The notes beneath the pieces are model-generated. The model saw only the letters and a program-made list of their open reading frames with translations, did not search any database and was not told the DNA's origin. Shown here in pieces: positions 2,935-34,893 of a stretch of 34,893 nucleotides of DNA. The stretch spans positions 1 through 34,893 of IMG/VR virus record IMGVR_UViG_3300035663_000055; one strand, 5' to 3'. The first letter of the stretch is position 1. Every line of letters begins with the position of its first letter. The position numbers were made by a program, and so were the translations under genes. This DNA is from a virus.

Positions 2935-2972
2935 TAGATTCCCGCCCGTTCCCCCGCATTCCGCTCACATCT

Positions 2973-2978
2973 GGAGGA
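2973..2978 (+). promoter_or_regulatory. Shine-Dalgarno site deciding the TTG start of the primase-helicase
   Basis: GGAGGA ends 6 bases before TTG 2985. The frame stays open far upstream, but only the TTG places a strong SD directly before the zinc-binding motif. Confidence 0.7.
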
Positions 2979-2984
2979 TTCTCC

Positions 2985-4568
2985 TTGGCCAGTCACAACC
3001 TTCCCTGCCCTTCCTGCGGTTCGTCTGACGCCCTTTCTGACTACGGGACTCACACCTTCTGCCACAAGTGCCGCAAGCGCGAGCGAAAGGGTATGCGGGC
3101 TGCGCCGGAGGCGGAGGAGCCCGAGGAGCGAACTGAGGGGGGCTTCACGGTCCTCCGGGACTTCACCGGCCGCGGGATCACCGCTGAGACCTCTCGGCGA
3201 TATGGGGTTAAGTTGGTGCAGATGCCTGCCGGCGACGAGTGTGTCATGTTCCCGTACCACGAGGCTCCTGGGGTCGTGTGCGGTCACAAGTTCCGGCAGA
3301 CCGACCAGAAGAAGTTCTTCGTCTCTGGGCGTCCCGGGGCCAACTTCTTCGGACGCTACGTCACCGCAGGGACTCGGCGGCTGGTCATCACCGAGGGTGA
3401 GTTCGATGCTCTGGCGGTCGCTGAGGCCCTCGGGCCCTGGCCGGTCGTGTCGATCCCTGCGGGGGCTGCGAATGCTTCCAAGGCGATCTTGGAGAACATG
3501 GACTGGATCGGGACCTTCGATGAGGTCGTCGTCTGGTTCGACAATGACAAGCCGGGGCAGAAGGCTGTCCAGGACTGCGCGCCGCTGTTCCGAATGGGGC
3601 GTTTGCGGCTGGTCCGCTCGATTCCTCAGGACTGCAAGGACGCCAACGACGTGCTGATGAAGCACGGGCTCACCGCGGTCAAGAATTGTGTCTACGGGGC
3701 CGAGGCGTACGCTCCTGAGGGCCTTGTGAGCGGCGCCAAGCTCTTCACTCGCCTCCAGAAGCGGCGGACTCTGGGGCACCCCTATCCGTTCGTCGGGCTC
3801 AACGAGATGCTCCTTGGGATGCGCCCCGGCGAGGTGACGATGTGGTTCGCCGGCACCAACGTGGGCAAGTCCACGGTCGTGCAATACGTCGGGGCCAACC
3901 TGGTGCGCTCTGGGGTTAAGGTGGGCGTGGTGGCCTTGGAGGAAAATGTCGAGCGGACGCTACTGCGCTACCTCAGCACCTTCGAGTCTCGCCCGCTCCA
4001 CCTGTCGGAGACCCTACCCGTCGACGAGCTGACCGCCAAGTACGAACAGCAGCTCGGCGAGAACCTGGTCTGCTTCGACAACGAGTCCAGCTACGATCCT
4101 GAGGTTGTCTTTGCTCGGATGCGCCACATGGTCCTCGGGGACGGCTGCGAGGTCTTGATCCTGGACCACATCTCGGCCCTCGCGGAGCGGCTGCAAGGTG
4201 AGGACGAGCGCAAGGGGATTGACCACATGATCTACGGGCTCGCCGCGCTCGCCAACGAGCTACAGGTCCACATCCATGTCATCAGCCACGTTTCGGCGAC
4301 TGCCCGGGATGCCGAGGGCGGCGGGAGTCTGCGGCTGGCCGATGGGCGCGGGTCGAAGGCTCTGGCCCAGGTCCCCGACACCGTGATCGCCCTGGAGCGA
4401 GACCTCCAGGACCCTGTGCTCCGCTCTGTGACCCGCTTCCGGGTCTTGAAGAATCGCTACCTCGGGATCACCGGGATCGCTGGCCACTGGCGCTACAACG
4501 CTGAGCACTGTACGTTCGAGCAGGTCGACCCCGAGACCCTGGAGAACCCCAACACCGACATCTCTTGA
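2985..4568 (+). CDS. T7 gp4-like DNA primase-helicase
   Basis: The 527-residue protein combines primer synthesis and DnaB-type helicase activity at the replication fork. The zinc-binding domain is at the extreme N-terminus with C8, C11, C26 and C29 in the gp4-type context CPSCGSSDA. The TOPRIM core shows EGEFDALA (E137) and DND (D186-D188). The helicase part has Walker A GTNVGKST with K295, Walker B LILDH with D394, then a HVISHVSATARD segment and the typical end RFRVLKNRYLGITG. Length is close to that of T7 gp4 (566). The start is TTG 2985, chosen by its SD site. Polymerase and exonuclease follow downstream as in T7. Confidence 0.95.
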   Translation: MASHNLPCPSCGSSDALSDYGTHTFCHKCRKRERKGMRAAPEAEEPEERTEGGFTVLRDFTGRGITAETSRRYGVKLVQMPAGDECVMFPYHEAPGVVCGHKFRQTDQKKFFVSGRPGANFFGRYVTAGTRRLVITEGEFDALAVAEALGPWPVVSIPAGAANASKAILENMDWIGTFDEVVVWFDNDKPGQKAVQDCAPLFRMGRLRLVRSIPQDCKDANDVLMKHGLTAVKNCVYGAEAYAPEGLVSGAKLFTRLQKRRTLGHPYPFVGLNEMLLGMRPGEVTMWFAGTNVGKSTVVQYVGANLVRSGVKVGVVALEENVERTLLRYLSTFESRPLHLSETLPVDELTAKYEQQLGENLVCFDNESSYDPEVVFARMRHMVLGDGCEVLILDHISALAERLQGEDERKGIDHMIYGLAALANELQVHIHVISHVSATARDAEGGGSLRLADGRGSKALAQVPDTVIALERDLQDPVLRSVTRFRVLKNRYLGITGIAGHWRYNAEHCTFEQVDPETLENPNTDIS

Positions 4569-11357: not shown

Positions 11358-11429
11358 TCTATCTCGTGCCGCTACGGCGGTTGAGTCGTGCCACGGTTGG
11401 CTTCTCCGCAACCCCAAAGCACAACTCCG

Positions 11430-12479
11430 ATGCCCCTTACTAACGGTTCGTTCACCGGAAAAATCGAAGGTTCCGGCGCTGGCGTCAACGCCGGCATGCT
11501 TCTCAAGGTCTACAGCGGCATGGTGATCTCGGCGCTGGACGAGATGTCCGTGACCGACGGCCGCTTCATCGAGCGCACGATCAGCTCTGGCGTCTCGGCC
11601 CAGTTCCCGGTCTTCGGCCGGACCTCGGGCAAGGTCCACACGATCTTCGAGTCGGTCTTGACTGACTCCTACGGCCAACAAGAGGCTCACGACGAGATCG
11701 TCATCACCCTGGAGCGTCCGTTCATCACGGTCAACAAGGTGGACGAGTTCGAGATGACCCAGGCGCACTACCCGGTGATCCAGGAGTACGCCCACATGCA
11801 GGCCCAGGCCATCTCCGAGCACTTCGACAACAAGCGCCTTCGGGCCCTTGCGGCCGGCGCGTTCCAAGCGAACCTCATCAGCGGCCTGCCGAATGGTTTC
11901 AACTTGGCCGGGACCACGGGCTTTGCCTCGGGCACCTCGTCGGCTGACATCAACGCCACCGTCGGAGCCTTCTTCGACGCCAAGGGCCGCTTCGACGCCA
12001 ACCGTGTCCCGCAGACTGGGCGCATGGCGTTCATGAACTGGGACACCTACAACTACCTCATCAAGTTGGCGGCGAACCAGGTGATCGACATGGACATCAC
12101 TGGCGGCCAGATGAACGGTTCGGTGGCGACCGGCACGATCAAGATGCTGGCGGGCTGGGAACTCCGCCCGACCAACAACTTCACGTTCTACTCCACGGCC
12201 TCGGCTCTCACCGGCTTCACGCAAGATCTCCCCACCGGAATCGGCAACGGCGACTGGGACAACTACGCTGTCCCGGTCAACAACATCGGTGTGATCTTGG
12301 GCCATCGCACCTCCCTGGGCACCCTCAGCCTCGGCGGGTTCGGTGGGGTCTCGACAGACTCCTGGTATGACCCGGAGTACCAGGCGCGAGTCATGCTGGC
12401 CCGCAAGTCGGCCGCCAGCCGTGTGCTCCGCCCGGAGGCGTGCGGTGTGATCCGCCGCGATGCTTCGGTGATCTCCTGA
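11430..12479 (+). CDS. Major capsid protein, T7 gp10-like
   Basis: The 349-residue shell protein is read from ATG 11430; an in-frame GTG at 11388 would add 14 residues that look unlike the family. The gp10-type sequence includes LKVYSGMVISALDEMSVTDG, then SGKVHTIFESVLTD, ITLERPFITVNKVDEFE near residue 100, and a C-terminus with GFGGVSTDSWYDPEYQA. T7 gp10A has 345 residues. No convincing SD lies before either start, which is strange for the most abundant virion protein. The gene stands apart from its neighbours, with about 130 bases on each side and a hairpin in both gaps. Confidence 0.95.
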   Translation: MPLTNGSFTGKIEGSGAGVNAGMLLKVYSGMVISALDEMSVTDGRFIERTISSGVSAQFPVFGRTSGKVHTIFESVLTDSYGQQEAHDEIVITLERPFITVNKVDEFEMTQAHYPVIQEYAHMQAQAISEHFDNKRLRALAAGAFQANLISGLPNGFNLAGTTGFASGTSSADINATVGAFFDAKGRFDANRVPQTGRMAFMNWDTYNYLIKLAANQVIDMDITGGQMNGSVATGTIKMLAGWELRPTNNFTFYSTASALTGFTQDLPTGIGNGDWDNYAVPVNNIGVILGHRTSLGTLSLGGFGGVSTDSWYDPEYQARVMLARKSAASRVLRPEACGVIRRDASVIS

Positions 12480-12485
12480 TCTAGC

Positions 12486-12521
12486 GGGCCCCAGGAGCGC
12501 TTTGTGAACCTCCTGGGGCCC
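12486..12521 (+). terminator. Strong hairpin after major capsid gene
   Basis: A perfect 12-base-pair GC stem (GGGCCCCAGGAG with CTCCTGGGGCCC) with a 12-base loop starts six bases after the capsid stop. The stem suits a terminator, but C/G-rich sequence rather than a T-run follows, and a tRNA-like element begins four bases later. It may limit readthrough from the capsid message or protect its 3' end. Confidence 0.7.
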
Positions 12522-12525
12522 CTGG

Positions 12526-12583
12526 CCTCTCGTAGCTCAGTTGGTAGAGCCTAGGTGCGTAGGTTCGAGTCCTACCGAGAGGC
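12526..12583 (+). tRNA. tRNA-like element without an anticodon arm (58 bases)
   Basis: All canonical tRNA parts except the anticodon arm are present. Acceptor stem CCTCTCG (12526-12532) pairs with CGAGAGG (12576-12582) over 7 pairs; T8 and A9 follow. The D arm is GCTC/GAGC with loop AGTTGGTA carrying the GG pair. The T arm is GTAGG/CCTAC (12559-12575) with loop TTCGAGT, a canonical T54-T55-C56-R57-A58. Between D and T arms there are only 8 bases (CTAGGTGC), where a tRNA has about 22. It cannot decode a codon. No CCA is encoded after discriminator C12583. It could be a decayed tRNA, an attachment-site relic, or a processing signal for RNase P/RNase Z, which need acceptor and T arms but not the anticodon arm. 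Confidence 0.8.
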
Positions 12584-12607: not shown

Positions 12608-13186
12608 ATGAAGAGCAAGCTAGAGGTTGTAAACGCGGCCCTGGAGGCTTGCTCTCAGTCTCCGGTGGCCTCCATTGATCTCACGAATCAACAGGTCGAA
12701 GTGATCTCGGGGATTCTGGAGCGGGAGCTGGTGGACGGCCAGACCGAGGGGTGGGCCTTCAATGTCGAGGACGAGGTGACGCTGACCCCGGACCTGAGTG
12801 GGTTCATCACGGTCGCGGCGGACATCCTGCACGTCTCTTGGGGCAAGGACCGGGCCCGGACTCCGGTGCTGGCGCTGCGCGGGGCCCGTCTGTTCAACCG
12901 CTCGGACAACACCTACGTCTTCACGGGCCCCATCAAGGTCCGGGTGATCCGCAAGTTGGACTGGGAGTTCACGCCCCAGGAATACCGGGAGTTCATTCAG
13001 GCCCGTGCGATCCGCATGGCCTACGCGGCCCTGATTACTGGCGGGCCTCTTCTCCAGGCACTCTATCTGGCCGAGGCCCAGGCCCGCGCCCATCTGACGG
13101 CCTTGCAGGCCAGCGCGAGCAACGAGAGTCTTCTGCGGACCCCCACGGCCTCGCAGTTCCTTGAGTCCCCCTGGTTCTCCATCTGA
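12608..13186 (+). CDS. Tail tubular protein A, T7 gp11-like
   Basis: The 192-residue adaptor joins portal to nozzle. The start KLEVVNAALEACSQSPVASID is the hallmark of the family, followed by LERELVDGQTEGWAFNVEDE and the late segment FIQARAIRMAYAALITGG with helical SNESLLRTP near the end. T7 gp11 has 196 residues. Its stop overlaps the next ATG (TGATG), so tail tube A and B are coupled. The start lies about 24 bases after the tRNA-like element; no good SD is visible. Confidence 0.93.
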   Translation: MKSKLEVVNAALEACSQSPVASIDLTNQQVEVISGILERELVDGQTEGWAFNVEDEVTLTPDLSGFITVAADILHVSWGKDRARTPVLALRGARLFNRSDNTYVFTGPIKVRVIRKLDWEFTPQEYREFIQARAIRMAYAALITGGPLLQALYLAEAQARAHLTALQASASNESLLRTPTASQFLESPWFSI

Positions 13187-16100
13187 TGCTGCGATCTGTC
13201 TCGGTCCCGACGCTGGCTGGTGGGGTTTCGCAGGGCCTGGCCCCGCTCAATCCGCCTTGGAAAGTCCGTGAGAGCGTCAACAACGTCCTGGACGTGGTGC
13301 GCGGGGCTGGTAAACGTCCTGGGTCTCGGCATGTGGCTGTGCTGGGCGCCGCGGATGTGAACGAGGCCGTCTGGCGGACTCTGCGTTTCGAGGACGACCA
13401 GTTCTACCTGGCACAGATCAGTCCGGCTTCGATCAAGGTCTGGGACCGTTTCGGCGCCCCGTACCCGGTCATCAACAGCGCCGGCAGTTTCTCCTACCTG
13501 GCCACGCGGGCTCCCAATGCGGCGGCGTCGCCCGAAGGAAACTGGTTGGTGGTCTTCGGCTCCGACTGGACTTTCAACGGCGGGGGTTCGATCACTGGAG
13601 TCGGGACAGGGGTCTTCGGCTTGACGCCCTGGGGAGAAGGCGGGTCCGCGGTGGTCTCTCAGATTAGCTCGGCTTCTCTCGTTGCTGGCGGGTACACCTA
13701 CCTCTACAACAGCGACGCCGCGCTGGTCTTGAAGCCCGGCAAGGCGGTCGTCAGCGTCTACGTCAAGGACCCGAACTACGAAGGCGCCGCTGGGGTCTTG
13801 GCGCCCACGCAGGTCGGCCTCGGGCTCATTCAACCGACTCTGGGGACTCCCCCGGCCTCCGCGCTTTTCTGGGAATACAACGCCACCAGCGCCAAGTGGA
13901 CGCTCAAGAGCCAGCTCGGCGAGGGGTCTGTGTTCTTGAAGCAAGGGGCCGTCTACTCCGGCGGGGGCTGGACGCGCCTGTGGGTCACTCTTGACCTGAC
14001 GCAATACCTCCAGCTCAGCGGCAATCTCGTGGGAGACCCTTTCTACCCCACGATCTTCCAGCTCTCTGGGGCCTCCGAGGTTCGCACCGTGCTCGCTACG
14101 GGCTTCCAGGTGACCTATGGGGTCGATGTGGTTCAGCCTTACCTGCTGTCGGGGCGCTACGAGACCTTGAGCCTGGGGTCGACCACGCTGGTCTTGAACA
14201 AGGCCGTGACGGTAGCCCCAGGGACGACGCTGGAGCCGACACCCAGTGCCTACGGGGATCAGGCGCTCTTTTTCGTGGCCCAGGGGGCCTACTCGACGAA
14301 ATACACGGTCTCTGCGATCGTGGATGTCAGCGGTGTCGACACGGTTTACTTTGCGACGATCACGACCTGGGATGGAGTCAACGGGGGCGTTGGCATCCTC
14401 AACTCCATAGACCCCGCGGACATCGCGGCGTCTTTGAGGGCTTCCCTGACCGGAGCCATCGCTCAGAATTTCGGGCCTCTGATTCTCCTGAGGTCTGACC
14501 CGACGCGGCAGATCAAGAACGTGATCGCCACGGACTCCCAGGGCGGCAGCGTGCCCCTAATCCGTGCTTTCGACGATCAGGCGCAACTTCTGACCGACCT
14601 GCCGGCCAGTGCGCCCGCTGGGTACAAGCTCAAGATCAGCGGAGACGCCGACTTCAACCAGGACGACTACTACGTCGAGTTCGTCATGGAGGGCATCGGC
14701 CAGTCCGGTTCGGGCGCGTCTTCGCTGGGCTTGAGCACCCAGAAGTACGGCCCTGGCCAGTGGATTGAGTCGCTTCCCAACGGAATCGTCCTGGATCTTG
14801 ACGAAGCGACGCTGCCGCACAAGATCGAGCGCAAAATCGACAACGCTCTTGGGGCGGTCACCGGGACTCCCAACGCGGTCTACTTCGAGTTCTCCCGAGT
14901 TACCTGGGCGGACCGCGAGGTGGGCGACGATGTGTCCAACCCTGCGCCGGATTTCGTTGGATCCCGCATCAACCATATGTTCTGGGTGGACGGCCGTCTC
15001 GGCTTCCTGTCCCAGAACAACGTCATCTTCTCTCGGGTCGACCAGCCTTTCAATTTCTGGCGGGAGACCGTGCGGACCTTCCCGGCATCTGACCGCATCC
15101 AGGCGCAGGCGGCCAGTCGGGACTACGCGGAGTTGCTCGGGACAGTTCTCTACTACGGTCGGGTGATCCTGATCTCCTCGGAGAATCATTGGATCCTCAA
15201 TATCAATCCGTCGCTGACGGCCGAGAACATCAACTTCGTCCCGTTCGTCAACTTCGAGAGTTTCCCCGAGGTCCCGCCGGCCTACACGGACAGCTCTGTC
15301 TATGTGCCGTACAAGGACGGGGCCTACACCGGAGTCCGTCGGATCACCCCGTCGAACGCTGATGCGAATGCGCTGATCACGCAGGATGTCACGCGGGAGA
15401 TCCGTAACTACATCCCCGGAGCCGCTCGTCAGATTGTCAGCGCGACCAACCTCGGGATGCTGTTCCTCCTGACAGACGTGGAGGGCGTTGACGACCACAG
15501 CAACATCTACGTTTACAGCTACGCCCAGTCCGGCTCGGAGCTGATCCAGACGGCCTGGCACAAGTGGCGGATGCTTGATCGAGTTGCACACTTGGCGGTC
15601 GAGAACAGCACGCTCTACACGGTCCAGGTCAGCGACGCTGGGGTCTACCTGGAAAGTCTGATCTTCGACGATGTGTTTGCGGCCGAGGGTACCCAAGAGT
15701 GGCGTTTGGACCGCCGAGTCGACGTGGGGGCCCTCAGCGTCTCAGTGAGTGGTGGTAAGACTTTGTTTACCGCCCCGCCCGGGTTCAAGTTCGATTCGCG
15801 CAATGATTGGAAGGCAGTCTACACGGCGGCCTCCAACGCCCCTGGTACGTTTACCAGCAGCAAGCTCAAGCTCGATAGTCTGGGCGCGGCGAGTCGAGGG
15901 GTCCCTGGATTGGTGGCGAAGTCGACCCCGGCGTTCAACAGTGCCCTGAACCTCAAGCAGTATTTCGACTTCAAGCCCCAGGCGCTGTTCTATCGCACCA
16001 ACTACCTCAAGGGCGCCCGCTACGCTAACCCCGGGACTCAAAACGGGTGGCTTAAGGAGTCCAAGAACAGCTTCAGCCAGTTCTCGGCTTTTGAGGATGG

Positions 16101-18288
16101 GATCTGTCCGGTGTACTTCTCGGGTTTCGAAAAGGGCTATCCGGACATCGGGAATCTTGGGACTGATCCGTACCGCGCTGGAACGCTGCTGTTCCGCGAC
16201 CTGCGGGAAGTCTCGTCTGATGGAACAGTGAGCCCTCTGTACCGGGCGGGGACCTATGTGCTGACCTTCGAGGGCGACGGGACCTTCATGGTCGGGTTCG
16301 ACGCCGCTCCGGCGAATCTTGTGGTCAATCCCTTCGGCGGCAAGGAGCTTGCGGGAGAGACCACGCCTGGGTCGAAGCGCATCGAGTTCAACGTGGCGAA
16401 CCCGACGACTGCGGGGGTCTATCTCGCGGTCCACACGAGCAACCCTGCGAATCGTGTGCGGAACATGCGCGTGTTCTACAAGGCTGACGAGGCCGACCTC
16501 GCGGCCCAGCCTTGGCTGCCTGAGTTCGTCAACGATCTCAAGAACGTCTTCAAGGTCCGAGTCCTGCGGCCCATGGAGTTCGTTGGGTCAAACACGAGCA
16601 AGCGCACCGTCAACCGGGTTCTAGCGACTGACCCCTTCTGGACAGGCGGCGGCTGGCCCTGGGAAGTCTTGTGCGAGCTGTGCAATCAGTTGGACTGCGG
16701 GATCTGGTACAACCCGCCGGGCTTCCTGGATGCGGCGGCCATCCAATCGGAAGCGGCAATCATCCGCAATACGCTCAAGCCCGAGCTGACGGTTGTCGTT
16801 GAAGGCCCGAATGAGATGTTCAACGGCTTCCCGTTCTCTGTCGGGAGCGGCCAATATGCCACAGGCGCTCTGGTGCCGCCTACCGCGGCCTGGCTGGAGG
16901 GCAACAACGCTACTGAGACCACGCCTGGATCTGGGGTCTACCAATACATCGGGCCGAAGCCCGGGTTCTCCAGCAACATCACGCAGGCGGCCTTCGAGGG
17001 TGCTGCGGTGCTGACAAACCGCGCCCACCAGGCGTTCGCTACAGAGTTCGCGGGCCAAACGGATCGATTGGTCTACGCTTTCGGAACGCAGGCCGCCAAC
17101 GTCTTCCCCTTCACCGTGGGCATCTCCCGCGCCCCGCTGACCCAGATGGTGGTCATCGCGCCCTACGCCGCGGTCAGTCCGTTCATTGATTTCACGCACC
17201 CGACTTACGCCCAAGAGGCTCTGTCTTCTTATGTCGGTGCTGAGGTGGATCAAGCGGTGCAGTTCGTGCAGAACTACCGCGATGCGATTGACGCGCACAA
17301 CACCACTACTGGTGCCTCGCTGCGCCTTGGTTGCTATGAGTTCGGCTTCCAGATGGTCAGCGCCAAGAAGTTCAGCCTGGACGATCCCAACGGGGTCGCG
17401 CCGGGCGGGGCGACTGCCAGCAGTCCCTCGTTGACCTTCTACCCGTCCGGGGGGCAGGTCGGGGCCTTCTTCTGGAACGAAATCTGGACCGGGTTCCTGC
17501 CGGTGTCTTTTCCGATCACCGACCCACAGAACACGGTCATCGGCGATCGGATCAAGACATTCATGCGGTCCGCGCAGGCCGGCACGATCCTGACGGACTT
17601 CATCGCCAAGGTCGCCCCGCTCCTCGACGGTCCCTTGGCCTTCTATGCTGACTACGCCCAAGTCTCCCCGATCGACGGACACTACGCCCTCCTCGACTAC
17701 CCTGGCCAGCCCCTATCGGTGTACCCCAAGGCTCAGGCGTGGGCGGCAGCTTCTGCGGGCGGCTCCGGCGGCGGCGGTAGCGGTCCTGGGGGCATCTCTG
17801 TGGGTCCTTCTGACCTTGTGGACCTGGAAGGGACGCTTATTCCAGGCCCGCCGGTCCCCCCAGGGACCACGCTGACGCTCACCTGGGTCGATGCGGATAC
17901 GCTGAGTGTGCAGGGCAACCTCCTGGACCAGCTCGACTACCTCCAGATCGGGGCGGAGTTCGATTGCTACATCGTGCTCCACCCGCCCTATTTCCGCAAC
18001 TCCAGGGAAGGCGCCATTCTCGGCGGATCCTACCGGGCCAAGCTGGTCAAAGTGGCTTTCGAGGACACCTGGAGGTTCCGGGTCGATGTCCAGGCAGAGA
18101 ACGGCAAGACTTACAGCAAGCAGGCCTCCTCCCAGGCCACGGCCACCCAACTGATCTTCAAGACCGGCCTTCAAGAGTTCCCGGCCCTCGGGGACCCGGC
18201 AAAGATCAGCGTGGCCCTCCACAACCCGGAGGTGACTCCCAACTGGTTCGCTAGCGTCGAGTGGCTTATCGAGCCGGTCCGGCGGTAG
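13186..18288 (+). CDS. Tail tubular protein B (nozzle) with inserted jelly-roll and glycoside hydrolase domains
   Basis: This 1700-residue protein is a T7 gp12-like tail nozzle with two insertions. Residues 1-111 match gp12 (LAGGVSQGLAPLNPPW, then KRPGSRHVAVL; ASIKVWDRFG). Residues about 112-322 form an inserted beta domain with SVYVKDPN and GGGWTRLWVTLD, like sugar-binding jelly rolls of phage tails. The gp12 frame resumes at RYETLSLGSTTLVLNK and includes FVGSRINHMFWVDGRLGFLS. After FTAPPGF (867) an insert of about 670 residues holds a small beta part and a TIM-barrel-like region with EGPNE (N1209-E1210) and CYEFGF (E1385), fitting acid/base and nucleophile of clan A glycosidases. A Gly/Ser linker (1524-1537) leads back to gp12 (LSVQGNLLDQLDYLQIG; C-terminus SVEWLIEPVRR). 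Without inserts about 815 residues remain, close to T7 gp12 (794). Confidence 0.9.
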   Translation: MLRSVSVPTLAGGVSQGLAPLNPPWKVRESVNNVLDVVRGAGKRPGSRHVAVLGAADVNEAVWRTLRFEDDQFYLAQISPASIKVWDRFGAPYPVINSAGSFSYLATRAPNAAASPEGNWLVVFGSDWTFNGGGSITGVGTGVFGLTPWGEGGSAVVSQISSASLVAGGYTYLYNSDAALVLKPGKAVVSVYVKDPNYEGAAGVLAPTQVGLGLIQPTLGTPPASALFWEYNATSAKWTLKSQLGEGSVFLKQGAVYSGGGWTRLWVTLDLTQYLQLSGNLVGDPFYPTIFQLSGASEVRTVLATGFQVTYGVDVVQPYLLSGRYETLSLGSTTLVLNKAVTVAPGTTLEPTPSAYGDQALFFVAQGAYSTKYTVSAIVDVSGVDTVYFATITTWDGVNGGVGILNSIDPADIAASLRASLTGAIAQNFGPLILLRSDPTRQIKNVIATDSQGGSVPLIRAFDDQAQLLTDLPASAPAGYKLKISGDADFNQDDYYVEFVMEGIGQSGSGASSLGLSTQKYGPGQWIESLPNGIVLDLDEATLPHKIERKIDNALGAVTGTPNAVYFEFSRVTWADREVGDDVSNPAPDFVGSRINHMFWVDGRLGFLSQNNVIFSRVDQPFNFWRETVRTFPASDRIQAQAASRDYAELLGTVLYYGRVILISSENHWILNINPSLTAENINFVPFVNFESFPEVPPAYTDSSVYVPYKDGAYTGVRRITPSNADANALITQDVTREIRNYIPGAARQIVSATNLGMLFLLTDVEGVDDHSNIYVYSYAQSGSELIQTAWHKWRMLDRVAHLAVENSTLYTVQVSDAGVYLESLIFDDVFAAEGTQEWRLDRRVDVGALSVSVSGGKTLFTAPPGFKFDSRNDWKAVYTAASNAPGTFTSSKLKLDSLGAASRGVPGLVAKSTPAFNSALNLKQYFDFKPQALFYRTNYLKGARYANPGTQNGWLKESKNSFSQFSAFEDGICPVYFSGFEKGYPDIGNLGTDPYRAGTLLFRDLREVSSDGTVSPLYRAGTYVLTFEGDGTFMVGFDAAPANLVVNPFGGKELAGETTPGSKRIEFNVANPTTAGVYLAVHTSNPANRVRNMRVFYKADEADLAAQPWLPEFVNDLKNVFKVRVLRPMEFVGSNTSKRTVNRVLATDPFWTGGGWPWEVLCELCNQLDCGIWYNPPGFLDAAAIQSEAAIIRNTLKPELTVVVEGPNEMFNGFPFSVGSGQYATGALVPPTAAWLEGNNATETTPGSGVYQYIGPKPGFSSNITQAAFEGAAVLTNRAHQAFATEFAGQTDRLVYAFGTQAANVFPFTVGISRAPLTQMVVIAPYAAVSPFIDFTHPTYAQEALSSYVGAEVDQAVQFVQNYRDAIDAHNTTTGASLRLGCYEFGFQMVSAKKFSLDDPNGVAPGGATASSPSLTFYPSGGQVGAFFWNEIWTGFLPVSFPITDPQNTVIGDRIKTFMRSAQAGTILTDFIAKVAPLLDGPLAFYADYAQVSPIDGHYALLDYPGQPLSVYPKAQAWAAASAGGSGGGGSGPGGISVGPSDLVDLEGTLIPGPPVPPGTTLTLTWVDADTLSVQGNLLDQLDYLQIGAEFDCYIVLHPPYFRNSREGAILGGSYRAKLVKVAFEDTWRFRVDVQAENGKTYSKQASSQATATQLIFKTGLQEFPALGDPAKISVALHNPEVTPNWFASVEWLIEPVRR

Positions 18289-30244: not shown

Positions 30245-30783
30245 GAGAGGACGGCTTCATCCAGGCCCTTTTGGCCTCCCCGTTGGTCCTGGCCTTGTTC
30301 CATTGGTGGACCCGCAGGCCTCGCAACATCCGTGAGGGCCTGGGCCAGACCGCTGCCATCTACGAGGTCTTGGCCCGATTCCTGTCCCATGACCACATCA
30401 AGGCGGTCTGGATCGAGGTCTTGGAGAACGGGGGCGGGATCCCGACGGCGACCAACATGGCCTACAGCACGGCCACCTGCTTCGTCGCCCGGGATCGCTA
30501 CCGGGGGTGGACCCGTGAGTTGGTTCGTGGGGAGGCCCTGGTCGCTGCCCTATCCCACGCTCTCCAGTCTGGCAAGTCCGCCGCTAGGGGCGTCGAGGTG
30601 GCCGACAGGTTCCTGGGATCCAGCATGAACCAGCCGAACCTATCGACCCGTTGGATCACGTTGGAGACCCAACGCTCCCGCGCGATTCTCCTGGGGTGGA
30701 TTCAGGAGGATGGCGCGGATCCGCTGGATCCCGAGGATCTGGTGGGACTGCGGGGGATCCTGAGAATTGGCGAGAACAAGTAA
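30241..30783 (+). CDS. Hypothetical protein with N-terminal hydrophobic helix
   Basis: The 180-residue protein overlaps TerL by 4 bases. Residues 7-22 (FIQALLASPLVLALFH) could be a membrane anchor, followed by a basic stretch (WWTRRPRN). The soluble part contains ALARFLSHDHI-like helix sequence, KAVWIEVLENGGGIPTATNM and CFVARDRYRGW. The strand-NGGG-loop arrangement recalls membrane-linked phage proteins seen near packaging genes, but I do not recognise a family. The stop lies in the first unit of a 23-base tandem repeat. Confidence 0.75.
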   Translation: MREDGFIQALLASPLVLALFHWWTRRPRNIREGLGQTAAIYEVLARFLSHDHIKAVWIEVLENGGGIPTATNMAYSTATCFVARDRYRGWTRELVRGEALVAALSHALQSGKSAARGVEVADRFLGSSMNQPNLSTRWITLETQRSRAILLGWIQEDGADPLDPEDLVGLRGILRIGENK

Positions 30784-30836
30784 TCGGCCTGAGCGAGGAC
30801 AAGTAATCGGCCTGAGCGAGGACAAGTAATCGGCCC
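30774..30836 (+). repeat. 23-base tandem repeat, about 2.6 copies
   Basis: The unit containing ACAAGTAATCGGCC recurs at 23-base spacing (TAATCGG at 30781, 30804 and 30827). The first copy includes the last codons and TAA of the preceding gene, so the stop codon context is duplicated twice downstream. Confidence 0.85.
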
Positions 30837-30861
30837 CGCCGGCGAGGGGCCTAGGGGCCTA

Positions 30862-30965
30862 GGGGCCGGTGGGCTCGAGGGGCCGGTGGGCTCGAGGGGC
30901 CTCGAGGGGCTCGAGGGGCCGGTGGGCTCGAGGGGCCGGTGGGCTCGAGGGGCCGGTGGGCTCGA
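30862..30965 (+). repeat. 17-base G-rich tandem array, five full copies
   Basis: GGGGCCGGTGGGCTCGA occurs at 30862, 30879, 30915, 30932 and 30949, with two shortened units (GGGGCCTCGA, GGGGCTCGA) between copies two and three. It is preceded by GGGGCCTA repeats at 30846-30861. The + strand is strongly G-rich and each unit carries CTCGA. Confidence 0.9.
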
Positions 30966-31375
30966 GGGGGCTCGCTGGCCTGCCGGTCTCGCGCCCTTGC
31001 GCCCCGGACGGCGGCTTCGATCATGCCAGCCACGCCTTGATTAGCCGCCCCCGGGACGGAACCGATCGGCGAATCTGCCGAATCTTGCGCGCAATCGGTC
31101 AAGGGCGCGAATAACCAGAATTAGCCGAACCAGATCGGCGCCGATCCGCTCGGGGTGGCCGAGGTGGCTGAGACTTTCCAGAATCGCGCGGTGCTGTGCG
31201 TTGATCATGCCAACGAAAGCCGACGCGGCTGCCGGGCCGATCGCGGAATCCGCGGAATCCGCCGCAACTCTAGGGCCCCGGCGGGTTTGCGGCGTTCCTT
31301 GGGATTCCTTCGATCGGTTCCGCGGATTCGCCGGCTCTGCGGGGAGCGCCCGGAATGGTTCCGCGGCGCTCCCGC
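30966..31375. other. Non-coding stretch with palindromes
   Basis: No convincing gene is seen. The segment holds a perfect 14-base palindrome (GATCGGCGCCGATC, 31133-31146), a tandem GCGGAATCC pair (31243-31260), and a 12-base inverted repeat (31246-31257 with 31318-31329) that could fold the leader of the DUF932-like gene. Promoters for that gene would have to lie here, but none could be named. A 55-residue minus-strand frame at 31041-31208 lacks an SD. Confidence 0.5.
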
Positions 31376-31397
31376 CTCTCTCTCTCTCTCTCTCTCT
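31376..31397 (+). promoter_or_regulatory. (CT)11 tract just before the DUF932-like start
   Basis: Eleven CT units end 7 bases before ATG 31405 (followed by CCCGACA). The tract takes the place of an SD sequence, and a nearly identical tract lies before the next gene. It is a dinucleotide repeat able to change length by slippage. Confidence 0.7.
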
Positions 31398-31404
31398 CCC
31401 GACA

Positions 31405-32238
31405 ATGGTCCACCCGACCGCCGCCGCCGCCTTCCTGCGCCCCGTTCCCCACGCTACTGTGCGCGACGCTTTCCGCCGCGATGCTGGCGAGGACTTGCCC
31501 GTCCTCAACTGGCCTACTTCCCGACTTCCCGCAACCCGCAAGGGTCGCGAACTGGCCCTCCGCAATCCCGAACGGATCGACGCCCCTGCCCTCGAGTTCG
31601 CACTGTACCAGGAGGGATTCGTCCGCTCCGCTTGGCGCCGTGGGCCCCGCGGGGCGCAGTGGATCGAATGGCACCGTGACCTGCTGCCCGGCTATCGCTT
31701 CCGGGTTTCGTTGGTGAGCCCGCGTCGCCCTGGCCGCGCCGACTTCCTGGCCTTCGGGCTGGGCGTCCTGGTGTGCTCGAATGGGCTCACCCTCGGCCCG
31801 ATGCAAGGCGAGCGCCTCTCCCACGCGCAGGGCCGCGCCGACTTCCTCGCTGGTCTCTCAGGCACGGTCCGGCGGATCGAAGGCGCTGCCGTTGCCGCTG
31901 CCGATTGGACCCGCCGGCTCCGGGACACCTCCACCAGCGTGCCGCTACGGGCCGGAGTCGCCGCCGGTCTCCGGGCCCGGGTTGGGTCCGACGGGATGCC
32001 GCGCGATATCCGGTGGGTCGACGCCGAAGTTGTCCCCATGCTCGGCCGGGGGAGCGCCTTGGAAACCTACAACGCCGCGCAGGGGCTTGCCACGGGGCGT
32101 ATCGACTGGACCCCCTACCCGGGCACCCCCTCCCGTCGCTCGGTCCCTGCGCTCGGGCAGGTCGGCGTTTCGTTGGCCCGCGCCGCGGTCTCGGAAGCTG
32201 TGCGCGAGGCCCTGGCGATCCCCGCGTTGGCTTTCTGA
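31405..32238 (+). CDS. DUF932-like protein
   Basis: The 277-residue protein is read from ATG 31405; the frame is open upstream through the CT tract (giving SLSLSLP), so an earlier start cannot be excluded. The core FLAFGLGVLVCSNGLTLGPM and the following RLSHAQG match the DUF932/phage-plasmid protein pattern (LVCSNGL..G, RxxH), and later ALETYNAAQGLATGRIDW matches its C-terminal helix. The family is common on phages and plasmids; its role is unknown, with DNA metabolism or recombination suggested only by context in other elements. No SD is present. Confidence 0.75.
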   Translation: MVHPTAAAAFLRPVPHATVRDAFRRDAGEDLPVLNWPTSRLPATRKGRELALRNPERIDAPALEFALYQEGFVRSAWRRGPRGAQWIEWHRDLLPGYRFRVSLVSPRRPGRADFLAFGLGVLVCSNGLTLGPMQGERLSHAQGRADFLAGLSGTVRRIEGAAVAAADWTRRLRDTSTSVPLRAGVAAGLRARVGSDGMPRDIRWVDAEVVPMLGRGSALETYNAAQGLATGRIDWTPYPGTPSRRSVPALGQVGVSLARAAVSEAVREALAIPALAF

Positions 32239-32249
32239 CTGACTTCCCG

Positions 32250-32280
32250 CCGGGCCCGTTCGGTTATCGGGCGGGTCCGG
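32250..32280 (+). terminator. Weak hairpin between DUF932-like and DUF7227-like genes
   Basis: CCGG (32250-32253) and CCCG (32255-32258) can pair with CCGG (32277-32280) and CGGG (32268-32271), giving a two-part stem with an internal loop 12 bases after the stop. No T-run follows. It may also simply reflect GC-rich sequence. Confidence 0.25.
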
Positions 32281-32296
32281 CTCTCTTTGCTAGCGG

Positions 32297-32316
32297 TCTC
32301 TCTCTCTCTCTCTCTC
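32297..32316 (+). promoter_or_regulatory. (TC)10 tract just before the DUF7227-like start
   Basis: Ten TC units followed by CCGA lead directly to ATG 32320. Arrangement and surrounding bases (TCTCTCCCGA) copy those at 31376-31402, in a genome with no other such tract. Confidence 0.7.
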
Positions 32317-32319
32317 CCG

Positions 32320-33045
32320 ATGAAACAGCCCACGCTTACCCTGGCGATGCCCGGCGATCGCTTGGCAGTCTTCCGATACGGTGCCGACAACGTCAAGCTC
32401 GGCCGCGCCGTCCAGGTCTACGTTCTCGCGGAGGGCGCCGATCCGAACAACTACGGGCCCGCGGAGGAAACCCGAGTGTGTGGCGCTTGCCCCCTTCAAT
32501 CCTGGAAAGGTGGCGGATGCTACGTCCTGCGATGGCAAGGCCCACGCCAAGCCGCAAGGGCCGCAACGGACCCGCTACCTTGGTCGGGGCCCGTCCTCGC
32601 TGCCGCGGCCGTGCGCGAGTGGGCGGAGCGCCACGTTCCCAAGGGCGTCTTGCTCCGGTGGGGGGCCTATGGGGATCCGGGCTTCCTCCCGTGGGACTTC
32701 CTCTGCGATGCGTCGCAAGGCTGGCGCGGCCCGGTGATCGGCTATACGCGGACCTGGACACACAATCCGACCTCTCCGGCCCGCCGCTGGCTCCGCGCTT
32801 CGACTCTCACCGCGGCGGAGGCAGCCAGCGCGGAGTCTTTGGGCTGGCGCAGTTACTTGGTCACCGATGCGCCCCCCGCGGATTCCTGGCCCTGCCCTTC
32901 GGTCGACGGGGCTACCTGCGATACTTGCGGGGCTTGCGGGATTAGCGCTGGCGCGCCGCAAACTATCACCATAGCCCCGCACGGCGCACGGGCTGCGCGG
33001 GTGCGCGAGGCTATCCGCGACCTTGAGAGGGCCGAACGGTGCTAG
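32320..33045 (+). CDS. DUF7227-like Cys-rich phage protein
   Basis: Read from ATG 32320 (241 residues). Recognisable parts are VCGACPLQSWKGGGCYV near residue 48, LLRWGAYGDPGFLPWDF, VIGYTRTW, and near the end a second Cys cluster (CDTCGACG) followed by ITIAPHGARA. This order of CxxCP...GGCYV, GAYGDP, GYT, CxxCGxC and a final HG is what I recall for phage DUF7227 proteins. The paired Cys clusters suggest a metal site. Function unknown. The start follows the CT tract rather than an SD. Confidence 0.75.
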   Translation: MKQPTLTLAMPGDRLAVFRYGADNVKLGRAVQVYVLAEGADPNNYGPAEETRVCGACPLQSWKGGGCYVLRWQGPRQAARAATDPLPWSGPVLAAAAVREWAERHVPKGVLLRWGAYGDPGFLPWDFLCDASQGWRGPVIGYTRTWTHNPTSPARRWLRASTLTAAEAASAESLGWRSYLVTDAPPADSWPCPSVDGATCDTCGACGISAGAPQTITIAPHGARAARVREAIRDLERAERC

Positions 33046-33236
33046 TGCGACTCCCCGGGGACCGATGGGGGCTCCGCCAAGGTTCCCGAGTGTGGATCCC
33101 TCGCTTGGCTAGCGTCCACGCTATGTCCCCGGCGTGGGCCTTGCCTACCCTACGGGCCCTTCTAGCCGATGCCCCGGACCTAGGGGACTGGCGCCCCTAT
33201 CCTGGCGAGAACAAGAAAGCCGGCGAAACGGAGTAA
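33039..33236 (+). CDS. Small hypothetical protein
   Basis: A 65-residue frame starts at GTG 33039 inside the end of the DUF7227-like gene (GTG 33045 is an alternative). It reads LVRLPGDRWGLRQGSRVWIP followed by helical AWALPTLRALLADAPDLG and a Lys/Glu-rich end (GENKKAGETE). The end is similar in style to that of the gene at 30241-30783 (GENK). No family recognised. Confidence 0.5.
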   Translation: MLVRLPGDRWGLRQGSRVWIPRLASVHAMSPAWALPTLRALLADAPDLGDWRPYPGENKKAGETE

Positions 33237-33273
33237 CGCCCCCGGTGGCCCGGGGAGCTATGCAAGGGCCTGC

Positions 33274-33289
33274 GCATATGCGCATATGC
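33274..33289. repeat. Tandem GCATATGC palindrome
   Basis: Two adjacent GCATATGC units form a 16-base palindrome, flanked by TATGCAAGGGCCT (33259) and TATGCAAGGCCTT (33285). It is an AT-containing island in very GC-rich sequence between the small gene and the tandem array, and could be an operator or an early-melting element. Confidence 0.5.
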
Positions 33290-33309
33290 AAGGCCTTTAT
33301 GCGCTCCCC

Positions 33310-33464
33310 GGGAGCCTACGGGACCCCCGGGACCCCCGGGAGCCTACGGGAGCCTACGGGACCCCCGGGAGCCTACGGGAGCCTACGGGAGCCTACGGGA
33401 GCCTACGGGAGCCTACGGGGCCCCCGGGAGCCTACGGGGCCCCCGGGAGCCTACGGGAGCCTAT
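33310..33464. repeat. Two-unit tandem array, 16 units
   Basis: The array consists of unit A GGGAGCCTAC (10 bases; 10 exact and one last copy ending in T) and unit B GGGACCCCC or GGGGCCCCC (9 bases; five copies). The order is A B B A A B A A A A A B A B A A. The mixed period breaks any reading frame, so it is not coding on the + strand. The stop of the minus-strand gene (33461) lies in its last unit. Confidence 0.9.
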
Positions 33465-33838
33465 CGCGGCGCGCGGGTGATGCTGGGGCCGTCGAGCGGT
33501 TCGTACGTCAATAGGATCACGTCCGGGCCCGGGCCCGGCCGGTGCCGAAGGAGCACCACAGGCTGGCCTGGAATGATCCAGCGGGCCCGATCGGCCGGCC
33601 ATGGCGTTCCGGAGTGTGGACCCCACAGCGTCTGGACTGCGCAGGTTTCCTTGAATAGGTACCCCGCATCCCAAGCGTAGCGAACCCAATCGGCGGAAGC
33701 GCCGCGCGGCAACACCGCCACCGCTACAGGCAGACCATTCCAGCCAGTGAAATGGGGCACGAATGCGGCAAGCCATGCGAGCGGGTCGGCGTCGGTCATG
33801 ACTTGGTCGGCGGTCGGGAGAGTCTCGGGAGTGTCCAT
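33461..33838 (-). CDS. Minus-strand hypothetical protein
   Basis: The 125-residue reading starts at the ATG whose complement is at 33836-33838; an ATG at 33895 would add 19 residues. The product has natural composition: PLAWLAAFVPHFTGWNGLPV, then SADWVRYAWDAGYLF and RWIIPGQPVVLLRHRP. The + strand frames opposite look like shadow sequence. It is the only minus-strand gene supported here and is convergent with 33039-33236 and divergent from 34039-34239. No SD precedes it. Family not recognised. Confidence 0.5.
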   Translation of the reverse strand: MDTPETLPTADQVMTDADPLAWLAAFVPHFTGWNGLPVAVAVLPRGASADWVRYAWDAGYLFKETCAVQTLWGPHSGTPWPADRARWIIPGQPVVLLRHRPGPGPDVILLTYEPLDGPSITRAPR

Positions 33839-33927
33839 CGGGAGGTCGCGAGGTTGGGCGGCCAGGTGCGTCCGGCTCGCTATCGCGGTGCGCACTATAT
33901 CGGGTGCCGCAACGGAAACGCACGAAC

Positions 33928-33983
33928 TTTCCCGGGAAAACTTTGGGGCGCGGACGTAAACCCTGCCGCCCTCTAGGTTTACG
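33928..33983. promoter_or_regulatory. Operator-like palindromes in divergent intergenic region
   Basis: TTTCCCGGGAAA (33928-33939) is a perfect 12-base palindrome flanked by two AACTTT copies. CGTAAACC (33955-33962) and GGTTTACG (33976-33983) form a perfect 8-base inverted repeat across 13 bases. Both lie between the minus-strand gene and the small gene at 34039, where a regulator would control divergent transcription. The second could alternatively fold as an RNA hairpin. Confidence 0.45.
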
Positions 33984-34038
33984 GCGCCCCCCGATCGGGT
34001 CCGATTCGGTCCGGCGGGTTTCTTCGGCTATCGGGAGC

Positions 34039-34239
34039 ATGCACAACACACTACCTGCCACCAGCATCCGACGCATCCGCGAGGCCGTCCTACGCATCGA
34101 CCAGCATCTAGAGGCGCTGGCCCTGCGCCAGGGTGCCGACGCGTCCCCCCGGGTCCTCGCTCTGGCGCGGGTCCACGACGCGCTCGGGGCGTTGGAGCGC
34201 GCCTTGGCGAGCTTGGCCGCAGCTTGGGAGGACGCGTGA
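34039..34239 (+). CDS. Small helical hypothetical protein
   Basis: The 66-residue protein has ATG 34039 with GGGAG five bases upstream. It is a helical hairpin or coiled coil: TSIRRIREAVLRIDQHLEAL, a short loop, then ALARVHDALGALERALASLA. Its end overlaps the GTG of the next gene (GTGA), and GGAGG near its end serves that gene. No family recognised. Confidence 0.65.
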   Translation: MHNTLPATSIRRIREAVLRIDQHLEALALRQGADASPRVLALARVHDALGALERALASLAAAWEDA

Positions 34240-34376
34240 TAGGCGCCTTGCTGGCCTATTGCGCTCTGGCCTCGTGGGCGTTGCTCGCGGAGCGTCCATG
34301 GAACCGGCGGGTGGCGCTCACCATCCTTGCGGGATGGGGAGTCTGGAGCGTCCGGCGCTGGACTCATGGAGGCTAG
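34236..34376 (+). CDS. Small membrane protein with two hydrophobic helices
   Basis: The 46-residue frame from GTG 34236 has GGAGG at 34227-34231. Hydrophobic helices span residues 2-18 (IGALLAYCALASWALLA) and 26-41 (VALTILAGWGVWSV) with a basic loop (ERPWNRR) and basic end, as in small phage inner-membrane proteins. A pinholin/holin-like or host-takeover role is possible but not shown. The stop lies in the first unit of a tandem array. Confidence 0.55.
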   Translation: MIGALLAYCALASWALLAERPWNRRVALTILAGWGVWSVRRWTHGG

Positions 34377-34463
34377 GGGTCCCGTGGGGTCCCGTGGGGT
34401 CCCTTGGGTCCCGTGGGGTCCCGTGGGGTCCCTTGGGGTCCCGTGGGGTCCCTCGGGAACCGT
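34376..34463. repeat. 10-base G-rich tandem array, about 8 units
   Basis: GGGGTCCC followed by GT, TT or TC repeats with one 9-base unit (34406-34414) and a decayed last unit (GGGAACCGT). As in the 33310 array, units differ in a variable end. Confidence 0.85.
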
Positions 34464-34474
34464 GGGGCCGAACA

Positions 34475-34566
34475 TCGAGCCCCTCGAGCCCCTCGAGCCC
34501 CTCGAGCCCCTCGAGCCCCTCGAGCCCCGCGGACCCCCCTCGAGCCCCTCGAGCCCCTCGAGCCCC
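34475..34566. repeat. 9-base tandem array TCGAGCCCC, nine units
   Basis: Six units (34475-34528) and three more (34540-34566) are separated by 11 G/C-rich bases. The period of nine makes open frames on both strands that translate as collagen-like or Glu-Pro-Leu repeats. From 34567 to 34767 only degenerate CTCGAG and GAGGCC pieces are seen, with no gene. Confidence 0.85.
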
Positions 34567-34767
34567 ACGAATCCCGCCCTACCCTTAGGTCCCGGCGACC
34601 CCCACAACTCGCGAGGCCCTCTCGAGCCTCCTCGAGCCCTCTAGGCCCACGAGGCCGCTAATCATCCGCGGACGCGCGCGCGGGAGATAGGGGGGCCAGG
34701 GGGGTCCGAGGGCCGGTCACGTTTGCGATAACCCCAGCGAGATTTTATGGAGATTCCCCGGGACCTC

Positions 34768-34893
34768 GCGAACCCTGCAATCTCCGCGAACCCTGCAATC
34801 TCCCCCGGGGCCTAGCAAGCCCGGCGAATCTTGTGGGGCCCAGCGAACCCTGCAATCTCCCCCGGGGCCTAGCAAGCCCGGCGAATCTTGTGG
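34768..34893. repeat. 51-base direct repeat at window end
   Basis: Bases 34786-34836 are repeated exactly at 34843-34893, with a 6-base spacer (GGCCCA), so the period is 57. The first 18 bases (GCGAACCCTGCAATCTCC) occur a third time at 34768-34785. Each copy contains CCCCCGGGG and GGGGCCTAGCAAGCCCGG. The second copy ends exactly at the window edge, so the array may continue. Confidence 0.9.

Follow-up and report, generated by a model that had tools for sequence, protein, structure and literature searches.

The window (the whole 34,893-nucleotide stretch analyzed here) belongs to a T7-like podovirus. Between its capsid and tail genes lies a 58-base element, at positions 12526 to 12583 on the plus strand, that has the form of a tRNA cloverleaf without the decoding arm. 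The features of this junction are listed below, with the basis of each assignment in parentheses.

11388..12479, + strand: gene for the major capsid protein, preceding the element (phrog_267 major head protein, E 8.5e-48)
12486..12521, + strand: strong hairpin, 4 nt before the element, no T run (-28.3 kcal/mol, z -4.16)
12526..12532, + strand: acceptor stem, 5' strand (RF00005 match; all seven pairs covary in the family)
12535..12550, + strand: D arm, GCTC AGTTGGTA GAGC (RF00005 match; near-invariant in the family)
12551..12558, + strand: 8-nt connector CTAGGTGC in place of the anticodon arm and variable loop (consensus in the family CTTGGGTC, with C48 conserved)
12559..12575, + strand: T arm, 5-bp stem and TTCGAGT loop (RF00005 match; covariation in three of the five stem pairs, the other two constant)
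12576..12582, + strand: acceptor stem, 3' strand (RF00005 match; family covariation)
12583..12583, + strand: discriminator position (C), with no encoded CCA behind it (sequence read)
12608..13186, + strand: gene for a protein resembling tail tubular protein A, separated from the element by 24 nt (phrog_446 tail protein, E 2.1e-36)

The initial annotation had described this anatomy from the letters alone, and it holds when the sequence is read directly: all seven acceptor pairs form (CCTCTCG/CGAGAGG), the 4-pair D stem (GCTC/GAGC) encloses a loop with GG, the 5-pair T stem (GTAGG/CCTAC) carries the loop TTCGAGT, and just 8 bases stand where the anticodon arm and variable loop would be. The Rfam tRNA model RF00005 spans exactly 12526-12583 with the anticodon arm absent (44.4 bits against a gathering threshold of 29, E 2e-6, model positions 1-71); about 18 model positions are left unfilled, all of them where the anticodon arm belongs, and this is the sole Rfam match in the window. 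ARAGORN did not call the window element, nor any of the other armless copies tested. An anticodon stem and loop are lacking, with 8 nt between the D and T stems, both here and in all 27 members of the alignment presented below, and the element cannot decode. The minimum-energy fold of the window copy as a single sequence is not the cloverleaf, which is 1.8 kcal/mol less stable. CCA after the discriminator is not encoded in the window copy and is encoded at positions 74-76 in 2 of the 27 members; its absence here, together with a discriminator that is not conserved, would argue against aminoacylation, though CCA might be added after transcription. Two identity readings, histidine-tRNA mimicry (G-1:C73 in the window) and alanine identity (G3:U70), were dropped, as the family shares neither base of the former and does not share the latter.

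The strong hairpin reported directly before the element is also present. As a candidate intrinsic terminator it was rejected: it is followed by CTGG instead of a U run and received no terminator call, and since the T run is absent it is not a standard terminator. A promoter of the element's own was looked for near the window copy and none was found. No match to the tyrosine integrase family PF00589 was obtained in the record, which may be incomplete, and an attachment site at a tRNA gene was rejected on this lack of an integrase gene in the window. TAGG does occur at 12552 and 12560, as had been noted together with the suggestion of a deletion between short repeats, but the other family members lack the repeat, so that it looks like a coincidence, and such a deletion is not supported as a general origin.

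Two other features of the window fall outside this junction. The tail nozzle (T7 gp12-like) protein encoded at 13186-18288 has 1700 aa instead of approximately 790, and the nozzle profile matches it in three stretches, which suggests a large insertion. Beyond the last clear phage genes, at 30770-34893, there are many short GC-rich tandem repeats with units of 10-29 bp, and an exact 57-bp repeat lies at the end of the window; these repeats may have arisen in assembly or may reflect a genome end rich in repeats.

The locus is common to five IMG/VR contigs, four of which show no differences over a 524-base span at the junction. In L004, the closest diverged relative, identity over this span is 97%, and a single change falls within the element, C6 to U, which converts a C-G pair to U-G and keeps the pairing. 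None of the relatives of the window phage carries a complete tRNA at the site, the arrangement that the initial annotation had named as the mark of a decaying copy. Among more distant capsid relatives (∼30% identity; Autographiviridae), the element was sought in the capsid-tail gap and found in 0 of 79 IMG/VR loci and 0 of 5 annotated phages, and the window lineage alone therefore provides no covariation test. At another position, the T7-like Rhizobium phage RHEph01 has a complete tRNA-Asn gene directly upstream of its capsid gene (L208:2269-2343).

We scanned IMG/VR with a pattern consisting of a tRNA D arm followed by a T arm with 4-22 bases between them, leaving the acceptor out of the pattern; the same spacing is 11 in the window and approximately 26 in ordinary tRNA. 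The scan yielded 91 stretches. In the nonredundant set, no gap is shorter than 10; the gaps cluster sharply at 11, become scarce at 13-17, and increase again toward normal length from 18. Of the 15 elements with a gap of 11, 12 form six or more of the seven acceptor pairs, which the pattern had not required. The connectors of this set accordingly peak sharply in length, with none below 7 nt, and so fixed a length is unlike random loss of an arm. A looser pattern recovered additional members, while loosening the D stem brought in no new ones, which indicates that the fixed D arm is not an artefact of the search. Across 84,980 species genomes, the search returned 45 stretches, of which some are broken by runs of N and some clearly fall outside the class.

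The common plan of the family is a 7-bp acceptor stem, an invariant D arm, an 8-nt connector (often CTTGGGTC), and a 5-bp T stem. Connectors such as CTTGGGTC recur alongside unrelated acceptor stems, a combination of sequences that suggests common descent or a shared partner. A family model separates the armless elements, at 56-77 bits, from ordinary tRNAs, which reach at most 46 bits; in six host genomes the armless elements score 59.7-73.4 bits, one per genome, against a maximum of 46.2 for the ordinary tRNAs of the same genomes. No genome holds more than one copy. The element was found in 2 of 400 species genomes of one bacterial family and 6 of 398 of another, and with so few host genomes carrying it we regard it as rare and phage-borne. 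BLAST searches of phage records with the consensus element returned mostly ordinary tRNAs, and Rfam scans for GOLLD, ROOL, and other larger RNA families gave only tRNA, weak tmRNA, or chance matches. In the literature we searched, outside of which most subscription journals fall, we found no earlier description of phage tRNA-like RNAs without an anticodon. Some sequences lie on bacterial chromosomes. An element on a Microbacterium chromosome (L181:3437) has a 6-nt connector, two shorter than its relatives'. In chromosomes of Spirosoma and Larkinella (L171, L174, L179, L182, L194, L200), an 11-nt connector joins the D arm to the T arm and most of the acceptor is unpaired; these are a different, bacterial group of tRNA-like sequences.

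We aligned 27 nonredundant members without gaps. Standard pairs fill 98.9% of the pair cells, with rare acceptor mismatches, a percentage inflated by the search pattern, which fixed the D arm and part of the T arm, and by the omission of members with fewer than 6 acceptor pairs; neither procedure creates double changes. Double-sided changes occupy 105 cells, compared with an average of 30 in shuffles, none of which reaches 105, and control structures slid along the alignment are only 37-46% paired. All seven acceptor pairs and three T-stem pairs show changes on both sides in some members, and the Levitt pair 15-48, G-C in 26 of the 27, is a compensated A-U in the other. RNAalifold, given no structure, returned a family consensus that is exactly the cloverleaf minus its anticodon arm. 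The aligned members have 7+5 pairs and conserve G18, G19, TTCRA, and the 15-48 pair, and the acceptor and T stems are expected to stack coaxially over 12 bp; the discriminator is not conserved and the acceptor stem varies freely across the family. Acceptor and T stems thus covary across the phage family with no anticodon arm, the pattern that the initial annotation had proposed as support for function. Its claim of selection rather than random decay is supported by the double-sided changes and the fixed connector length. Similar elements with independently re-paired stems in many unrelated phages point to a selected structure, and because the family covaries and the relatives of the window phage lack a complete tRNA at the site, we consider it highly probable that the armless, nondecoding tRNA-like fold is under selection.

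The family probably has its roots in tRNA genes. In Streptococcus phages, a common upstream flank links the armless element of L042 to a complete tRNA-Phe(GAA) gene of phage Javan565, and on this ground descent from tRNA genes appears likely, at least once. The same flank could be taken to mean that the elements are tRNA genes that lost the anticodon arm and are decaying without function, and some matches to the pattern do look like decayed tRNAs, such as L120, which lies beside three tRNA genes. Decay would not produce near-complete pairing with so many double-sided compensatory cells or a sharp peak of connector lengths with none shorter, and the one change in L004 preserves its pair; the covariation strongly disfavors this explanation, and we rate it as exceedingly unlikely.

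The position of the element in other phages is not fixed, and boundaries of structural and packaging genes seem to be common among its sites. The window has the order capsid, hairpin, element, tail. Microbacterium siphophages (L011, L064, L081) have a capsid gene (phrog_212), a gene of 137-138 aa, a 15-bp hairpin that shows compensatory changes of its own, the element, and connector genes. In L121/L125, a T7-like podovirus encoding a single-subunit RNA polymerase, the order is scaffold, hairpin, element, capsid, so that the element precedes the capsid gene, and in L137 it is element, scaffold, capsid. Elements precede small or large terminase genes in L042, L156, L138, L104, L084, L038, L095, and L019 and lie upstream of DNA polymerase in L009 and L061; some copies are found inside tRNA arrays and some members within a few kilobases of integrase genes. 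In 11 of 40 members (p 3e-6), the 50 nt upstream of the element rank in the top 5% of their own contig for stability, compared with 4 of 40 for the 50 nt downstream; the remaining 29 have no especially strong hairpin before the element.

In Lactobacillaceae phages, the element sits just behind a late transcription activator gene and before the head and packaging genes. This placement, together with a start codon 13-24 nt past the element in the window, the Microbacterium phages, L160, L112, and the Polaribacter phage Danklef, would suit a role in the 5' leader, in which the element affects translation or mRNA stability of the downstream gene, or structures the leader of the late operon, without any cut by RNase P. 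Such a role leaves the elbow and the fixed 12-bp stack unexplained, and in L010 and L021 the next gene is apparently on the opposite strand, so that no downstream message is served there. We think a leader function improbable. A separate conserved noncoding stretch follows the ArpU-like late activator gene in the Lacticaseibacillus phages A2, phiAT3, T25, BH1, LJ, J-1, and Lc-Nu (L291-L297, approximately positions 2940-3340); it contains a lone T-arm hairpin (GCGGGTTCGATTCCCGC), to which several of these phages add a second tRNA-like unit 70-90 nt later, and Rfam gave only tRNA and weak tmRNA matches to it. This stretch may be an undescribed structured RNA.

A cultured example is found in Polaribacter phage Danklef_1, where a 58-nt element annotated as "tRNA-OTHER, Undet_(NNN)", with its expected 5' end at 43546, scores 73.8 bits with the family model. 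A terminator-like hairpin with a U run ends 4 nt before it, and the next start codon follows 13 nt after it. In the published description, Danklef has a single tRNA and its sister phage Freya has no tRNA (PMC8776804). Freya has neither hairpin nor element and has an unrelated upstream gene, while its downstream gene is 97% identical to that of Danklef at the protein level; in the comparison of L314:2087-2552 (Danklef) with L319 (Freya), homology resumes right at the 3' edge of the element. By this alignment, the hairpin-element module seems to travel with the upstream gene, as would fit either a signal for the 3' end of the upstream gene or a boundary of recombination. As a general account, the latter would hold that gene cassettes are swapped where a tRNA-like sequence has its 3' edge and that its RNA fold matters little, and the proximity of some members to integrase genes could be read in the same way. 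A DNA site, however, would not need compensatory stem changes, the window has no tyrosine integrase, and the Microbacterium hairpin and element persist within syntenic genes; we consider this account very improbable.

In line with one of the roles suggested in the initial annotation, which is partly supported here, we hypothesize that the element is a selected nondecoding tRNA-like structure serving as a processing signal in cis, cut by host RNase P, and we give this reading slightly better than an even chance. The late transcript would pass through the capsid gene, the hairpin, and the element into the tail genes. With its 12-bp acceptor/T stack and D/T-loop elbow, the element would mimic a pre-tRNA, and through this mimicry host RNase P is proposed to cleave between 12525 and 12526. 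The capsid mRNA would be left ending just past the strong hairpin and would thereby be shielded from 3' exonucleases, while the tail message would be separated from it, possibly with trimming by RNase Z near 12583. From the tRNA elbow, RNase P gauges a set length along the acceptor/T stack (PMC4919913). It cleaves model substrates made of an acceptor stem, T stem, and T loop alone (PMC11143913), and elbow mimicry by mascRNA and menRNA recruits both RNase P and RNase Z (PMC11693755). The elbow bases and the exactly 7+5 stacked pairs of the family are the features that RNase P measures (PMC4919913, PMC11693755). The hairpin-element layout moreover recurs in unrelated phages (the Microbacterium siphophages, L121/L125, and Danklef). 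Against the processing model, most members (29/40) have no strong upstream hairpin, a few are located within tRNA arrays or close to genes for integrase, DNA polymerase, or terminase, so that the site is not always between capsid and tail, and the D arm and connector are conserved in sequence beyond the known needs of RNase P. Hairpins are also frequent in intergenic regions anyway.

The conservation of the D arm and connector is what leaves room for a free small RNA gene acting in trans as a mimic of the upper half of tRNA, its excision from the message being maturation only. The near-invariant D arm and the recurrence of the connector with unrelated acceptors suggest a partner that reads more than stem length, and the presence of at most one copy per genome and of some copies in tRNA arrays agrees with such a gene. 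Its targets might be, for example, RNase P, a tRNA-modifying enzyme, the CCA-adding enzyme, or a tRNA-targeting defense protein. The freely varying acceptor stem and discriminator count against a mimic of this kind, as does the lack of a promoter near the window copy, and a role in cis better accounts for the way the element is fitted tightly between codirectional late genes behind a hairpin. We regard action in trans as rather unlikely.

The element shares with transfer RNA (RF00005) the acceptor stem, D arm, T arm, elbow bases, and Levitt pair 15-48; it differs in having no anticodon arm, no encoded CCA (in the window copy), a variable discriminator, and no decoding role. The tRNA-like domain of tmRNA similarly joins an acceptor stem and T arm without a classic anticodon arm, but tmRNA has no D stem and carries a tag reading frame and pseudoknots, and Rfam and ARAGORN searches for tmRNA in the window gave no match. 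In mitochondrial messages, tRNA-shaped units between genes are cut by RNase P and RNase Z; those units are working tRNAs, whereas the phage element is a dedicated nondecoding unit. The RNA end upstream of the processing site in MALAT1 owes its protection to a stable structure. A stable structure also stands right upstream of the phage element, 4 nt before it in the window and in several unrelated phages, although it is a hairpin and not a triple helix. The mascRNA and menRNA of human MALAT1 and MENbeta are, like the phage element, tRNA-like units of approximately 60 nt with an elbow at the 3' boundary of an RNA; their elbow recruits RNase P and RNase Z, and they are not aminoacylated (PMC11693755). 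mascRNA keeps a stem in the anticodon position and has a reduced D arm (PMC11693755), whereas the phage element has no such stem and a complete D arm. These are animal RNAs and ours is a phage element. Phage RNAs cut by host RNase P include the M3 RNA, the P1/P7 C4 antisense RNA, and the T4 gene 32 mRNA (PMC11143913), and that account presents none of them as a cloverleaf lacking the anticodon arm and placed between structural genes.

In its broadest form, our proposal is that phages of several bacterial phyla carry a tRNA-derived, selected armless family that punctuates late operons, with RNase P cuts giving separate, hairpin-protected ends to the capsid and tail messages; we consider the chances of this evenly balanced. 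Gene finders miss armless copies or file them as undetermined tRNAs (that of Danklef was counted as its single tRNA), and annotation would therefore improve. Danklef, which is cultured and infects Polaribacter sp. R2A056_3_33, and predicted prophages of culturable bacteria, such as those of Microbacterium enclense NIO-1002 and Lacticaseibacillus mingshuiensis 117-1, offer direct experimental access to the element. If the proposal is correct, the elements would be natural minimal substrates for RNase P, they would suggest how phages set the ratio of capsid to tail mRNA without extra promoters, and the tRNA-type punctuation of messages seen in mitochondria and MALAT1 would extend to viruses of bacteria.
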